Source: Terriglobales bacterium (GTDB lineage Bacteria > Acidobacteriota > Terriglobia > Terriglobales > Acidobacteriaceae). From it: DNA of 35,636 nt. The stretch covers positions 1 to 35,636 of the forward strand of contig JACQDD010000085.1 in NCBI GenBank assembly GCA_016201265.1, in the 5' to 3' direction. Both the position numbers and the translations under genes were made by a program. Below the pieces are notes generated by a model. That model was given only the letters and a program-made list of their open reading frames with translations. It made no database searches and was not told the DNA's origin. Numbering within the stretch: position 1 is the stretch's first letter; each line of letters starts with the position of its first letter. Shown piece by piece: positions 15,257 through 20,714 of the stretch.

Positions 15257-15262
15257 TATAAT
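15257..15262 (+). promoter_or_regulatory. Candidate -10 element upstream of the ECF sigma gene
   Basis: A consensus TATAAT lies about 80 bases before the sigma-factor start codon. No convincing -35 is visible at the usual distance, so this is a weak call. Confidence 0.35.
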
Positions 15263-15341
15263 CTGCTAACGATCTGGTAGCTGCCCCGTCTATTTCCCTG
15301 CCAGGTTAGGTTGGTCCAGCTTGTAGAGGAAGCAGACGCAA

Positions 15342-16046
15342 ATGCCGGCCGATTCGTACGCAGCGGCAATTCCGGTTGGCGATCTTTCCCGTCCGGGGCG
15401 GGCCCGGCAGGAACAGGGCAGCGGTACCCAGAACCCCAGCATGAGGGGCTCCGTGGCAGCACAGGGCAGCCGCATTGACGACACGACTTTGATCCGGGAG
15501 GCGCAGCGGGGCAACCGCGCGGCTTTCGAGGTACTCGTTCGTCACTACGATCAGTCGGTCCTGCGCCTGGCCCTTCACCTCACCGGATCGGAAGCGGACG
15601 CCCAGGACATCCACCAGGATGCCTTCCTCAAGGCCTACAAGAACCTGGGAAGTTTCCGGTTTGAGTGTTCCTTCTACACCTGGATTTACCGCATCGTTAC
15701 CAACCTGTGCCTCGACCACTTGCGCAAAAGGAATGTTCGCAAAGAGGACGCTCCGGTGGCGACGGATCAGTCGGGCGAAGAGTACAGCCTGCTGGAGCAG
15801 GTCGCTGACGGGCGAGCGGGGGCGAATCCGGAACGCGACCTGATGCGCCGCGAACTGGGCCGCAAGATTGGCGCGGCGCTGTCTCGCCTGACTCCTCGCG
15901 AGCGCATGGTGTTCGAGTTGAAGCACTATCACGGCCTCAAGTTGCGCACCGTGGGCGAGATGCTCAATACCACGGAAGAAACGGCCAAAAATACGCTGTT
16001 CCGCGCCACGCAGAAACTGCGCAGCGCGCTGTCGGAGATGCGATGA
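15342..16046 (+). CDS. ECF-type RNA polymerase sigma factor (RpoE-like)
   Basis: A 234-residue sigma-70 family protein. Region 2 spans about residues 48-120: LIREAQRGNRAAFEVLVRHYDQSVLRLAL, then DAQDIHQDAFLKAYKNLGSF and FYTWIYRIVTNLCLDHLRKR. Region 4 spans about 178-232: LSRLTPRERMVFELKHYHGLKLRTVGEML and the recognition helix area TEETAKNTLFRATQKLR. The first 45 residues are low-complexity. The ATG at 15342 has AGAGGAAG upstream; an internal ATG at 15441 is an alternative. The anti-sigma gene follows after 36 bases, so this sigma is probably held inactive by it and released by an envelope signal (inference). Confidence 0.93.
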   Translation: MPADSYAAAIPVGDLSRPGRARQEQGSGTQNPSMRGSVAAQGSRIDDTTLIREAQRGNRAAFEVLVRHYDQSVLRLALHLTGSEADAQDIHQDAFLKAYKNLGSFRFECSFYTWIYRIVTNLCLDHLRKRNVRKEDAPVATDQSGEEYSLLEQVADGRAGANPERDLMRRELGRKIGAALSRLTPRERMVFELKHYHGLKLRTVGEMLNTTEETAKNTLFRATQKLRSALSEMR

Positions 16047-16082
16047 AGAGTTTCGATCGACTCCCCGCGAAGGGGTGCAAAC

Positions 16083-17030
16083 ATGAAATGTGATTGGGTA
16101 AAAGACAATATCGTTTTCTACGTTTATAACGAGTTGGAAGACGACGCTCGTTATGAAGTAGAGCAGCATCTGGCGCGGTGTCCGGAGTGCACCGTCGAAC
16201 TGAAGGCGGCGCGCAAGTTCCATGCCACGCTTTCGCAAGCGCCGGTAGCGGAGCCGAGCCCGAACCTTCTGGCCGCCTCGCGCATGCGCCTGCAGGAAGC
16301 GCTCGAGACCACCACCCAGGGCGGCTTCTGGCAGCGCCTGATCTTCGATCCGGGCAACTGGCTGCGGCAGGTCCGAATGGCCCCGGCTGTGGCCGCAGTG
16401 ATTTTCATCGTGGGCTTCGGCGGGGGAATCGCAGCCACCTACAATTTCGTTGGGTCGCATTCCACAGTAACGAATCTTGCGAGCGGAACATCCAGCTCCG
16501 GCGCCTCCCCTCTCGAAGCTTCCGTCACCGGTATTCGATCCGTCACCCAGGAGCCAGGATCCAATCAGGTCAGCATTAAGTACGACACGGTTTCCACGCA
16601 GGAGACGCAGGGTTCTCTGAACGACCAGCGCATCCAGCAGCTCCTTCTCTTCGCGGCCCGCAATAACTTCAACTCGGGAGTTCGCATGGACTCGGTGGAC
16701 CTGCTGACGCAGGCGCCCAACGATACCAATGTCCGAGAGGTACTGATGTACTCGCTGCAGAACGACACCAATCCGGGCGTGCGCCTGAAAGCGCTGGACG
16801 GGCTGAGCGGCTTCGTCCGGCAGGATGTGCGGGTGCGGAACGCGGTCTTGCAATCGTTGATCAGCGATGCCAATCCCGGTGTGCGAGTGCAGGCCCTGCG
16901 CCTGGTGGAGCCGATGAAAGCGGACAGCGGCGTGCGTTCGGTGCTAACCAAGCTGTCGCAGAGCGATCAGAATGTTTCTATCCGTTCCCAGGCCCGCGCC
17001 ATGCTGGCGCAGGTACCGGAAATGGATTAG
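16083..17030 (+). CDS. Anti-sigma factor: zinc finger, one membrane helix, periplasmic HEAT-like repeats
   Basis: A 315-residue protein. Residues 1-50 are a zinc-finger anti-sigma domain with the HX3CX2C motif at H29, C33 and C36 (EQHLARCPEC). A single helix at about 100-120 (APAVAAVIFIVGFGGGIAATY) crosses the inner membrane. A serine/threonine-rich linker is followed by repeated helical units from about 180 to 315, for example NTNVREVLMYSLQNDTNPGVRLKALDGL and VRNAVLQSLISDANPGVRVQALRLV. These read as HEAT repeats. The cytoplasmic part should bind the sigma factor encoded upstream, and the periplasmic HEAT part would be the sensor. It ends at a TAG directly before the DUF4097 gene. Confidence 0.88.
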   Translation: MKCDWVKDNIVFYVYNELEDDARYEVEQHLARCPECTVELKAARKFHATLSQAPVAEPSPNLLAASRMRLQEALETTTQGGFWQRLIFDPGNWLRQVRMAPAVAAVIFIVGFGGGIAATYNFVGSHSTVTNLASGTSSSGASPLEASVTGIRSVTQEPGSNQVSIKYDTVSTQETQGSLNDQRIQQLLLFAARNNFNSGVRMDSVDLLTQAPNDTNVREVLMYSLQNDTNPGVRLKALDGLSGFVRQDVRVRNAVLQSLISDANPGVRVQALRLVEPMKADSGVRSVLTKLSQSDQNVSIRSQARAMLAQVPEMD

Positions 17031-17182
17031 AAGTCGCTAGAATTTTCCAACTGGCTGGCACCGGAGTAGTTCTGGCAGCGCTGGCGTCCCTGGCCGCGGG
17101 CCAGGAAACTCGCGTCTACCGCGAGGGCAGCAACTGGGTTCAGGAGATCACCGGGACCCTGGGCGCTGCCAAAACTCTGCGC

Positions 17183-18103
17183 GTGAAGGTGGACATGGGA
17201 TCGGTTCGGGTCGAGGGCGGTTCGCAGCCGGGGGTCAGTTACGTCATTCATAGTCGTGCTTATACCTCCTCGGAGCAGCAGGCTCGGCGCGAATTCGACG
17301 CGTACAAGATCAGAGGCGGGAACGTCCGCACCACGGGGATTGCCGGCCGTACTGAAATCCAGAGTGGAGGTGGGAGTATTCACCTTGACGACATCGGCGG
17401 TGCGATCAACGGCGAAACCGGCGGCGGCGCCATCGACGTAGGCACGGTAGGCAGCGATGTAAACGTTCGCACGGGAGGCGGAAATATCAAGGTCGCCTCG
17501 GCCAAAGGCAAGCTGGCCGCCGAAAGCGGTGGTGGAAGCGTCGTGGTTCTCTCCTGCCTGCAGGGAGCGACGTTGGAAACCGGCGGCGGCAACATCCAGG
17601 TGGAGCGCTGTCAGGGAACGGTGCGCGCCACCACCGGCGGCGGCAGTATCGATTTGGGCGACATCGGTGGTCCCGTGGAAATTGAGACCGGCGGGGGCAG
17701 CATCCGCCTGAGTTCAGCCAAAGGTGCGGTGAAGGCGGAAACCGGGGGCGGTTGTATTGAGTTGAACGGAGTTCCGTCCGCCCGGGCCGAAACCGGAGGG
17801 GGCGGAATCATTGCCAGGTTCCTGCCGTCCGCAGGTGAACGAACCGACTCGACACTGGAAACTGGCGCTGGCGACATCACCGTCTATCTCGCCAGCGATC
17901 TGCCGATCTCCATTCGAGCGGCGATCGAACTGGCCAACGGCCACACCATTCGTACGGATTTTTCCGATATTCACATTGCCAGCGAAGGTGGAGACTGGGG
18001 GCCGAGAACGGTGACGGCCGAAGGCAAGCTAAACGGCGGCGGACCGGTACTCAAGGTCCGGACAAATTCCGGGAACATCAAATTCCTCCGCGTCAGTCAC
18101 TAG
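17183..18103 (+). CDS. DUF4097 family beta-repeat protein; true start lies upstream
   Basis: From the first ordinary start codon (GTG 17183) the protein has 306 residues. About ten copies of a TGGGxI unit (SGGGSIHLDDIGG, TGGGNIKVASAKG, TGGGSIRLSSAKG) should form a beta-helix-like stack, as in DUF4097 proteins. The same frame is clearly coding further upstream: codons from about 17042 give IFQLAGTGVVLAALASLAAG, a signal peptide, and then QETRVYREGSNWVQEITGTL, the usual family N-terminus. No ATG, GTG or TTG precedes the signal peptide in this frame; ATT at 17042 or CTG at 17051 are the only plausible starts unless there is a sequence error. Probably exported; function unknown. Confidence 0.82.
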   Translation: MKVDMGSVRVEGGSQPGVSYVIHSRAYTSSEQQARREFDAYKIRGGNVRTTGIAGRTEIQSGGGSIHLDDIGGAINGETGGGAIDVGTVGSDVNVRTGGGNIKVASAKGKLAAESGGGSVVVLSCLQGATLETGGGNIQVERCQGTVRATTGGGSIDLGDIGGPVEIETGGGSIRLSSAKGAVKAETGGGCIELNGVPSARAETGGGGIIARFLPSAGERTDSTLETGAGDITVYLASDLPISIRAAIELANGHTIRTDFSDIHIASEGGDWGPRTVTAEGKLNGGGPVLKVRTNSGNIKFLRVSH

Positions 18104-18133
18104 CGGGGGACGATTCTTTCTTCAGGAGGGCCC

Positions 18134-19195
18134 ATGACACATCGCATTCTGCTCGGTGTGGTTCTGTTGACGCTAGTCGCCACCGCACAACCTGCGGAAC
18201 TGGCTTACGACCGCCCTGGCGAAAACTGGAACTGGGGCTACGGCGTGGAAGAGGGCGGAGGCGGCTCATCGTACCTGGGAGTGGACATCGCCGATGTCAC
18301 GACCGAACGGCTGGGAGCCTTGAAGCTCAAGGAAGAGCACGGCGCGGAAGTCACCATGGTGGACCAGGATGCGCCCGCCGGAAAAGCCGGCTTGAAAGAG
18401 CACGACGTCATCTTGAGCTTGAACGGCGCGGCGGTGGAGAGTGCCGCCCAGTTGCGCCGCATGATTCGCGAAACTCCCGCCGGCCGCGTGGTCACGCTCG
18501 GCATCAGCCGGGACGGTCAGCCGCAGTCCATCAAAGTACAACTCGCAAACCGCGGGAAGGCTTTTGCTTTGCGGTCCATGCCCCAGGATTTCAAGTTTGA
18601 GATGCCGGCGATGCCCGTGATTGCGGACCTCGATATTCCGGTTTCGGTCGTGATCGCCCATTCCTCCCTGCGCAGCGGGCTGATGGTGGAAAACATTACG
18701 CCACAGCTCGGTGAGTTTTTCGGGGTCAAGAACGGCAACGGCGTGCTGGTGCGGTCGGTGGAGAAAGGCAGCCGGTCGGAGAAAGCTGGATTCCATGCCG
18801 GTGATGTGATCGTGCGCGTCAACAGCCAGTCGGTGCACGATACCTCTGACTTCACCCGAGCTCTGCGAGCAACCTCCGGCGGCACGGCGGCCGTTACGGT
18901 GATTCGCGACAAGAAAGAGCAGAACCTGAACCTAACCCTTCCCGACAAGAAGGATTCAGGGGGGCTGCTGATGGAGGAGAGCTTCGACATCCCCGAGCTG
19001 ACCGCCGAGACCGAGGTTGAACTCAGCCGCGTCGGAGAGGAAATCGCGCGCATTGCCCCGGCGCTGGAGAGAGTACAGCGGGCGACTCCCTGCTTGAAAG
19101 ACCTGCAACGAAAATTGCAGGACTCGCAGCGCAAGATCCAGCAGCAAGGGGAAAAGCTCCACCACGAAGTCGCGGGAGAATGGGCCGAGATCTGA
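18134..19195 (+). CDS. Exported double-PDZ protein without protease domain
   Basis: A 353-residue protein with AGGAGG seven bases before its ATG. A signal peptide (about 1-20) is followed by PDZ1 (about 45-137; YLGVDIADVT, then VDQDAPAGKAGLKEHDVILSLNGAAV) and PDZ2 (about 170-268; VRSVEKGSRSEKAGFHAGDVIVRVNSQSV). A helical, charged C-terminal tail (about 290-350) looks coiled-coil. There is no trypsin-like or other catalytic domain, unlike DegS/HtrA. PDZ domains bind exposed C-termini, so a sensing or scaffold role in the periplasm beside the anti-sigma factor is plausible but inferred. It follows the DUF4097 gene by 30 bases. Confidence 0.88.
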   Translation: MTHRILLGVVLLTLVATAQPAELAYDRPGENWNWGYGVEEGGGGSSYLGVDIADVTTERLGALKLKEEHGAEVTMVDQDAPAGKAGLKEHDVILSLNGAAVESAAQLRRMIRETPAGRVVTLGISRDGQPQSIKVQLANRGKAFALRSMPQDFKFEMPAMPVIADLDIPVSVVIAHSSLRSGLMVENITPQLGEFFGVKNGNGVLVRSVEKGSRSEKAGFHAGDVIVRVNSQSVHDTSDFTRALRATSGGTAAVTVIRDKKEQNLNLTLPDKKDSGGLLMEESFDIPELTAETEVELSRVGEEIARIAPALERVQRATPCLKDLQRKLQDSQRKIQQQGEKLHHEVAGEWAEI

Positions 19196-19361
19196 TCCGT
19201 CGACGCGACTGAGCGCAAGACGGCGGCAGCTCGTTGGTGACCAAAGTCACTGCCTACAAGTACAGGCCCCTTCTCGCCCAACAGTTTCCGAATCCCGCCC
19301 TAAGTCCAGTACCCCTGGTTACCTGCCTCCGCAGAGAGATTCCCGTTAAGCTGATGGTGGA

Positions 19362-20714
19362 ATGGCTCTCCGCGCCCTGTTGTTTTCGAAGAACCCGGAA
19401 ACCGCCGATTCGCTGACCGCGGTCCTCAGGGAAGCCGGCATCCGCGCGGAAGTCTGCGCCGACATCTTCGCCGCCATGGAGAAAGGAACCAAGCAGCCCT
19501 TTGCTTGCATCCTTGTGGACTGGTCGGACCAGCCCGAGGCGGGCTTTCTGCTGAAACGCGCGCGCGAGTCGGGGCAGAACCGAAACACGGTGGCGATCGC
19601 CATCGTTGAGGACGAGCCAACCCCCGATGAGGAACGCGAAAATCGCCTCGACTTCCTGATTTTTCGCCCGATTGCTGTTGATGAAGCGCGGGCCGTGCTG
19701 GCCAAAGCGCGCCAGCAGATGCAATTGCAGTCCACCGCCTTCGCCACCGATTCCGGCACTTCCCTCGACCATCCGGAGTTTGAGGAGCCCCTGGAGGACT
19801 CCGAAGATCCCAACCTGGTTTCCACCGCTACCGATCTGCCCGAGCCTCCTCCTTCGTGCGTTTCCGCGGAAGCGGAAGTTGAAGAAGGCACCTTTGCCGA
19901 CGAACCCGCGCCCGAGGAAAGACCCCAGCGCCATCCGATCCCGTTCCGCCCCGTTTGTGCTGCCGTGCTGGCCGTCGCCGCGGCATTTTGCCTGTGGAGA
20001 TCGCGCGAGGCGTTTCGCTATCTGGCCCAGACGCGCGAGGGAACATTGCACGTGTTGCAGGAATCCGTCCTTTTCTATGTCAACCGGTCGCAGTCGGTTG
20101 GTTCGGCGATGACCGGCGTGCAACCGGACCCTTACTTCACGAGAACTCCCGGCAACGCGAATACCCAATCGGCGCCTCTGGGAGTGGTCTCGGCGGAGAT
20201 CACCCTGCCGGATACACCCGGACGCTTGCGCGCCGCTTTTGATTTTCCGCTGCCTGTGCCGGAACTGCACGTGGATCCGCTTCCCGCCCGCGTGGAGCGT
20301 GCGCAGGTTCCGGACAGTCTCAAGTCCTCCGCTCCCATCGCCCGGCCGGTCGTGGTGACGGTGGGGCCGGGTCAGATGATGCCCGTCTCCACGCCGCCGC
20401 CTCCGATTCCGCAGTACGGCGAACCCGTCCACCTGAATGAAGAAGCAGCCCGGGCGCTCGTGGTCCACTCCGTAGATCCCGTGTATCCTCCCGTAGCCAT
20501 GGCGCAGAAACTCCAGGGAACGGTCGTATTGCAGGCGACGATTGGACGCGATGGAAGTGTGCAGGATCTGAAGCTGGTTCGTGGATACTTCGCACTCGCG
20601 CGCGCCGCCATCGCCGCCGTAAAGCAGTGGCGCTTCCGTCCCAGCAGCATCAACGGCCGTCCGGTAGAAGCCCAGACCGTGATCACCGTGAACTTCAGCT
20701 ATCCGCCCGGATAG
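19362..20714 (+). CDS. Degenerate receiver domain fused via a membrane helix to a TonB C-terminal domain
   Basis: A 450-residue fusion. Residues 1-120 fold like a receiver domain. D53 (CILVDWSD) remains, but the N-terminal acidic pair is lost (LLFSKN) and the conserved lysine is R102 (FLIFRPI), so phosphorylation is doubtful. An acidic, proline-rich linker precedes one membrane helix at about 196-212 (RPVCAAVLAVAAAFCLW). A long periplasmic linker leads to a TonB C-terminal domain at about 360-450, with VDPVYPPVAMAQKLQGTVVLQATIGRDG and IAAVKQWRFRPSSINGRPV. It would span the periplasm from a cytoplasmic signalling head. No ExbB is adjacent. Start by ATG at 19362 with a weak ribosome binding site. 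Confidence 0.85.
   Translation: MALRALLFSKNPETADSLTAVLREAGIRAEVCADIFAAMEKGTKQPFACILVDWSDQPEAGFLLKRARESGQNRNTVAIAIVEDEPTPDEERENRLDFLIFRPIAVDEARAVLAKARQQMQLQSTAFATDSGTSLDHPEFEEPLEDSEDPNLVSTATDLPEPPPSCVSAEAEVEEGTFADEPAPEERPQRHPIPFRPVCAAVLAVAAAFCLWRSREAFRYLAQTREGTLHVLQESVLFYVNRSQSVGSAMTGVQPDPYFTRTPGNANTQSAPLGVVSAEITLPDTPGRLRAAFDFPLPVPELHVDPLPARVERAQVPDSLKSSAPIARPVVVTVGPGQMMPVSTPPPPIPQYGEPVHLNEEAARALVVHSVDPVYPPVAMAQKLQGTVVLQATIGRDGSVQDLKLVRGYFALARAAIAAVKQWRFRPSSINGRPVEAQTVITVNFSYPPG

Follow-up and report, generated by a model that had tools for sequence, protein, structure and literature searches.

The closest described counterpart of the system considered here is the rpoE-rseA-rseB-rseC operon of Escherichia coli, which acts with DegS and RseP and in which an extracytoplasmic function (ECF) sigma factor, a membrane anti-sigma factor and exported factors are likewise combined in an apparently autoregulated operon. 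Two other groups of proteins are close to its parts: class I zinc anti-sigma factors (ZAS), such as RsrA, ChrR and RskA, which carry the pattern C/H-X25-H-X3-C-X2-C, and the Toastrack (DUF4097/DUF2154/DUF2807) proteins of the phage shock protein (PSP) and Lia systems, which share the beta-helix of 4QRK and 4OPW. We analyzed a window, i.e., the whole stretch of 35,636 nucleotides of contig JACQDD010000085.1 (assembly GCA_016201265.1) from a Terriglobales bacterium of the family Acidobacteriaceae, the genome of which spans 2.93 Mb in 300 contigs and is 76% complete. On its plus strand lies a cassette for an ECF sigma factor, a membrane anti-sigma factor with a predicted extracytoplasmic HEAT arm, an exported Toastrack-like protein and an exported double-PDZ protein; export and signal peptides were judged by eye throughout. 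We conclude, with high confidence, that a sigma-type promoter precedes the four genes, which form a single conserved unit, and that its motif also occurs ahead of a few envelope genes; the conservation of the unit, the domain make-up of its products, the promoter motif and the predicted envelope targets were all established by computation. Domains were called with Pfam and NCBIfam, and structures are AlphaFold models compared with Foldseek.

Measured against the families of the sigma-E system, the products stay below the model cut-offs: the sigma factor scored 116.1 bits with the RpoE model TIGR02939 (cut-off 236.15), the anti-sigma factor 17.9 bits with the RseA model NF041468 (cut-off 165), and the PDZ protein 71.7 bits with the DegS model TIGR02038 (cut-off 422.95; DegS was not searched for elsewhere). 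The PDZ pair is similar to that of DegP/HtrA (TIGR02037, E 1.4e-40, two stretches). The third gene has no RseB-family match in Pfam or NCBIfam, and the model of its ortholog is a Toastrack beta-helix. Unlike the sigma-E system, the cassette has Toastrack in third place, its PDZ protein carries no protease, and its anti-sigma factor bears a HEAT arm. As for the PSP/Lia systems, no PspA, PspC or LiaF domain exceeded its cut-off among the window's four gene products in Pfam and NCBIfam. In PMC11237479, an operonic sigma factor is linked in a general way with Toastrack contexts and an intracellular domain is predicted, whereas the Toastrack orthologs here are apparently exported by a signal peptide; its main text contains 0 occurrences of "PDZ" and "anti-sigma". 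No paper joining a HEAT anti-sigma factor, Toastrack and PDZ was found in the open-licence literature searched. The pieces are of known kinds; what is new in that literature is the combination of a HEAT-armed zinc anti-sigma factor, an exported Toastrack protein and a protease-free double-PDZ protein, with a regulon defined by a motif.

Conservation of gene order was surveyed in the source genome and 60 relatives (61 in total), with each product used as a query; below, G, L and A numbers denote genomes, loci and alignments of the comparison set. In 35 of the 61 genomes, a single contig holds all four core genes in order: 19/24 in the genus, 9/13 in the rest of the family, 4/14 in another family of the order and 3/10 in the rest of the class (the PDZ genes of G040 and G049 were read from lists of open reading frames, ORFs; in G055 the order is kept with about 1.7 kb between the Toastrack and PDZ matches). 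Contig ends split the cassette genes in four more genomes (G014, G020, G022 and G023), and in G045 the sigma gene lies on one contig and Toastrack and PDZ on another, the anti-sigma gene not being found. In G031 and G035, Toastrack is missing between the sigma/anti-sigma pair and a confirmed PDZ gene, G060 and G052 have anti-sigma and Toastrack with no adjoining PDZ gene, and G059 has sigma and anti-sigma only, at a contig end; the remaining sixteen genomes showed no such cassette at the thresholds used.

A second set consisted of 80 loci whose records bear titles such as Terriglobia, Terriglobales and Acidobacteriaceae and are almost all metagenome-assembled genomes (MAGs); these were picked via the anti-sigma factor, so that counts are conditional on its presence. 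All four genes are in order in 72 of them, and the other 8 run off the contig end. In a phylum sample of 149 evenly drawn genomes, own genome included, an anti-sigma factor of this profile (E 1e-15) was found in 26, of which six were fetched and four read. G078, from another family of the phylum, has the full set, and Pfam confirms its sigma, DUF4097 and double PDZ. In G084 and G100, anti-sigma is accompanied by Toastrack (by eye), with PDZ not beside them, and G107, from the same family as the window, carries sigma, anti-sigma and double PDZ but lacks Toastrack. In three genomes of other families (G051, G040 and G049), the frames from anti-sigma through Toastrack to PDZ, taken as longest ORFs, overlap or abut, as expected of one transcript. 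Either exported partner is absent at some loci while the anti-sigma factor stays, as expected for modulators. The first-pass annotation had proposed the cassette with the proviso that its neighborhood be conserved in relatives; the neighborhood proved to be conserved and recurs in another family, and this test did not refute the proposal. As a separate observation, the gene that follows anti-sigma and Toastrack in G084 (L270:4183-5805) is WD40-like plus HEAT-like by eye.

Upstream of the sigma gene we found a predicted ECF promoter, TGCTAAC-N16-CGTCTAT (15264..15293, plus strand). Of 81 loci, 10 were dropped for a partial sigma match or too short an upstream stretch; in the other 71, spaced words were counted over the 220 bases that precede sigma. 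A single word pair dominated, and the best match had exactly 16 bases between the blocks in 71/71 loci; the strict form TGCTNAC-N16-CGTCYAW occurs with this identical spacing in 70 of the 71 upstream regions versus 0 of 14,200 shuffled sequences. Because the motif was derived from these same sequences, tests outside them matter. AAC/CAC-N17-GTC is a geometry typical of ECF promoters, and the -10 block CGTCTA resembles the -10 element of sigma-E. The hexamer TATAAT lies directly 5' of the motif (15257..15262, plus strand), which it adjoins in 54 of the 70 loci, and is possibly a housekeeping -10 or an upstream element. A search of the window with up to 2 mismatches returned one site only, that before sigma, with no internal site; the operon is presumed to be autoregulated. 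Genome-wide, the pattern matched 65 times in the own genome and 36 others, where the reversed control matched 7 times, and the corresponding counts in 18 more genomes were 28 and 7; given these controls, some of the matches must be due to chance.

We read 14 of 30 motif loci from the first pattern search and 6 of 28 from the second. Genes that recurred at the matches encode an exported DUF2911-TPR protein and a divergent MacB_PCD/FtsX permease; the permease was read in G011, G012 and G023, with Pfam domains for the G012 copy. The DUF2911-TPR gene is present in 16 of 37 genomes, own genome included, and is preceded by GCTNAC-N17-GTCYAW, which has the same spacing as the sigma motif, in 16/16 versus 1/3,200 shuffles, at 86-127 bases ahead of the matched coding stretch. 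The loci of G000, G002, G016 and G020 were held out, i.e., not reached via the motif, and G012 was reached only via the permease side. On that side, an opposite-strand element occurs within 211 bases in 8/16, with one extra spacing base in 6 of the 8. A small exported protein is present in 30 of the 61 genomes, and GCTN[AC]C-N17-GTCYAA lies within 500 bases upstream in 21/27 versus 1/5,400 shuffles; this count leaves out G004 and G028, which begin at contig starts, and G058, which has a stop inside. Two more of the 27 have a deviating site, the site is exact and farther upstream in G012 and G036, the G008 region is cut by a contig end, and G029 has none. The motif also precedes DUF2911 in G032 and the small protein in G033, both of other genera. 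Envelope genes that carry the sigma-factor motif support the first reading. Among the other loci, L156, L163, L165 and L169 have a match without a clear short-distance target, the motif in L205 precedes a PadR-like gene (by eye), and L146 (G004:C81) holds a motif site, G010:C106 being alike by its letters.

Two side observations concern small genes. The leader that separates the ECF motif from the small exported gene (L219:1250-1500, with equivalents in 18 other genomes; alignment A9) contains a conserved multi-helix RNA, in which 37 cells changed on both sides, versus 9.7 in shuffles and no more than 9 in slid controls, the structure being derived from the same alignment as the covariation count. 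Rfam gave no match for the leader in three loci, and we regard it as a candidate new structured leader. In two genera, related small proteins whose N-terminus is hydrophobic have the motif 22-24 bases ahead of them (L199:976-1476, minus strand; L213:1553-2071, plus strand); they share 34% identity (E 2e-19, pairwise comparison) and are a possible further member of the regulon.

The sigma, anti-sigma, PDZ and TonB-fusion frames were located on the plus strand as first noted. The ECF sigma factor (15342..16046, 234 residues) matches Sigma70_r2 (E 1e-18) and r4_2 (E 2.4e-11) in Pfam, and its ATG start is at the aligned position in relatives whose match begins at residue 1. The membrane anti-sigma factor (16083..17030, plus strand, 315 residues) matches zf-HC2 (E 1.7e-7) and HEAT_2 (E 3.7e-8); its zinc ligands C3, H29, C33 and C36 are invariant across 50 rows (alignment A5) and fit the ZAS pattern given above. 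In the AlphaFold model (mean pLDDT, the predicted local distance difference test, 84), the zinc-domain helices are at the N-terminal side, the membrane helix lies at about 101-124 with pLDDT of only about 58-68, and a disordered linker follows (pLDDT about 40 at 121-140); then come three strands at 150-178 and eight HEAT helices at 182-310, with pLDDT 90-98. The zinc-finger head and periplasmic HEAT region read from the letters alone are thus recovered by both Pfam and the model, which confirms the extracytoplasmic HEAT arm at the level of a predicted structure. Foldseek with the whole protein returned nothing below E 0.001, the best match (1.4e-3) being a designed helical repeat and the other weak matches mainly HEAT/ARM-type proteins. 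Compared to class I ZAS, the protein shares C3-H29-C33-C36 and membrane anchoring, and differs by its extracytoplasmic arm of three strands and HEAT repeats. Its C-terminus is a conserved PE[IM]D (PEMD in the window), with D last in 73/79 and E third from last in 75/79.

The third gene (17042..18103, plus strand, a stop-to-stop frame) encodes a Toastrack/DUF4097-like exported beta-helix, as judged from an ortholog model and alignment. The window product has zero Pfam matches and only a weak LiaG match in NCBIfam (E 0.009); its ortholog in L065 scored 18.4 bits for DUF4097 against a gathering cut-off of 22.9 (E 0.0015), that in L115 had no DUF4097 match in Pfam and a LiaF-like_C match at E 0.026, and the G078 homolog exceeds the DUF4097 cut-off (30.9 versus 22.9 bits). 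The AlphaFold model of the L065 protein is a beta-helix (pLDDT 90.7), the best Foldseek matches of which are 4QRK (4qrk, E 8.1e-7) and 4OPW (4opw, 6.6e-3); in PMC11237479, 4QRK is given as an example of Toastrack. An exported beta-stack (DUF4097) partner, as first proposed, is upheld by this model and by the G078 homolog. The copy in the window looks damaged: its frame is open from 16667 to 18103 and contains no ATG, GTG or TTG before GTG 17183, hence none early enough to take in a signal peptide. Region 17031-17183 is missing the spacer, ribosome site and start codon of the orthologs, and the product of 17042-18103 lacks 42 internal residues of its N-terminal region that are present in two aligned orthologs; these features suggest either gene decay or misassembly of the MAG. 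Automatic choice of Toastrack starts in orthologs gave TTG in 52/75 loci, and four loci, window included, yielded none; in the closest orthologs a TTG start stands behind a spacer and a ribosome-site-like stretch in 16/16.

The double-PDZ protein (18134..19195, plus strand, 353 residues) is exported and matches Pfam PDZ_2 at E 1.5e-29 in two stretches; Pfam found no protease domain in the window protein or in the four relatives scanned, in agreement with the protease-free partner proposed at the outset. Its tail ends in EI, and in the family the last residue is I in 58/71 and the one before it E or D in 63/71. It should be noted that in G028, where a sigma ortholog was not found, there is a PDZ homolog (L250, G028:C35:31509-32444) with 3 TGA and 1 TAG inside, which is perhaps a remnant of a lost cassette.

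The first interpretation is partly upheld: the envelope-sensing ECF cassette, the gene order, the exported beta-stack and double-PDZ partners, the lack of a protease in the cassette and the motif-bearing envelope genes are supported. The best explanation of the whole, which we prefer with modest confidence, is an autoregulated ECF operon that watches the cell envelope, with exported partners that would act as an RseB-like buffer and with proteolytic release of sigma. The zinc domain of the anti-sigma factor would hold sigma at the inner membrane, and the extracytoplasmic HEAT arm would be the receiving surface on which the exported Toastrack and PDZ proteins dock as a buffer, in a role like that of RseB in E. 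coli. Envelope damage would draw these proteins off or alter their docking, and the anti-sigma factor would then free sigma, most likely after being cut by a site-1 protease coded elsewhere and by RseP. Because both exported proteins come from the same operon, their synthesis would restore the off state, a negative feedback. The site-2 protease RseP (TIGR00054) is over its cut-off in 22/25 genomes, and with RseP present in relatives, proteolytic release remains likely. We consider it most likely that the switch resembles that of sigma-E and that different folds make up its RseB-like buffer.

Several points weigh against this explanation. The genomes are mostly MAGs, all of the support is computational, and the contacts between products, the signal and the site-1 protease are inferred. 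RseP is incomplete or not found in the own genome (a 95-bit fragment near a contig start, below the cut-off), G006 and G045; the Toastrack gene of the own genome looks damaged, as described; and a distant anti-sigma homolog in G049 has HEAT repeats while its zinc-finger match is absent. The strict site precedes sigma in only 29 of 42 sigma-bearing genomes (19/26 and 10/16): the motif deviates by one base in the -10 block in G015 and G016, has one extra base of spacing in G036, and has no match at sigma in G031, G035, G039, G040, G045, G047, G049, G051, G054 and G059, mostly with distant sigma factors, so that it is shown only for the closer clade. In G021 the motif is kept before the small exported gene, and a sigma or anti-sigma ortholog was not found. 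That genome, together with the thirteen lacking the strict site, could mean that the motif belongs to another regulator or sigma factor and that the cassette is not autoregulated; the ECF-typical geometry and the position of the motif just upstream of sigma in nearly every locus speak against this, and we consider it highly improbable.

A different question is what the exported partners do. Binding of the PDZ and/or Toastrack protein to the HEAT arm might, in line with the contact-only sensing first suggested, alter the grip on sigma with no cleavage at all, in keeping with the protease-free PDZ protein, its [DE]I tail, which is PDZ-ligand-like and could self-occlude, and the conserved tail of the anti-sigma factor. 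However, a single-span anti-sigma factor with a disordered linker offers no obvious route for a conformational change, and RseP is present in relatives; such a partner switch is doubtful. In its most specific form, the HEAT solenoid would scaffold Toastrack and a catalytically empty double-PDZ protein, the [DE]I tail of which would plug the PDZ groove until displaced by the free C-termini of damaged outer-membrane proteins, the outer-membrane-protein tail signal of DegS thus being read with no cleavage; this is speculative and quite unlikely. Alternatively, Toastrack and PDZ may be ordinary regulon outputs, i.e., co-transcribed periplasmic binders of repair or chaperone-like kind that send no signal to the anti-sigma factor. 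The loci with PDZ and no Toastrack (G031, G035 and G107) and those with Toastrack and no PDZ (G060, G052, G084 and G100) fit such a role, and the remaining predicted targets likewise appear to be exported or bound to the membrane, but those targets lie elsewhere, whereas the two partners adjoin the anti-sigma gene across families of the phylum; we regard plain outputs as unlikely.

A fifth gene (19362..20714, plus strand) follows after a gap of 166 bases and was initially listed, with its membership left open, as a receiver-TonB fusion. The TonB part stands (Pfam TonB_C, E 2.2e-18, behind a membrane span), whereas the receiver was not recognized by Pfam at E 0.1 and the N-terminus resembles one by eye only, a clear acidic pocket being missing. 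Membership did not hold: orthologs at E below 1e-60 are limited to the window's genus, where the gene is a neighbor that is often unlinked (in G002 and G006 it sits on a separate contig that leaves room around it, and in G014 it is 4.3 kb away). Eleven named or window cases have both genes; in ten of them 133-283 bases lie between PDZ and the fifth gene, and in the eleventh, L086 of another genus, 3335: there a weaker homolog, the ends of which match at 35% and 58%, follows 3.3 kb past the PDZ gene. G021 (96% complete), in which the cassette was not found, keeps this gene (L249:8863-10230) and the small exported gene with its motif; the usual downstream neighbors are beside the TonB-fusion gene (by eye), and the upstream genes are unrelated. 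We therefore rejected it as a core member. A sigma-70 consensus scan of the window gave 0 promoters, and 5 terminator-like sites were found versus 5.7 by chance; at this level, the scan gives no verdict on the fifth gene.

Envelope stress sensing is little known outside Proteobacteria and Firmicutes, and Acidobacteria are abundant in soils and hard to study. A guess from domain order has become a testable module with a defined operon, a target-predicting motif and two exported partners, the loss patterns of which differ between species. Its predicted targets are the DUF2911-TPR protein, the MacB/FtsX-type permease and the small exported protein with its putative structured leader. The module would tell whether a PDZ sensor works without its protease and, if true, the protease-free sensor would represent an alternative to the sigma-E pathway across the phylum.

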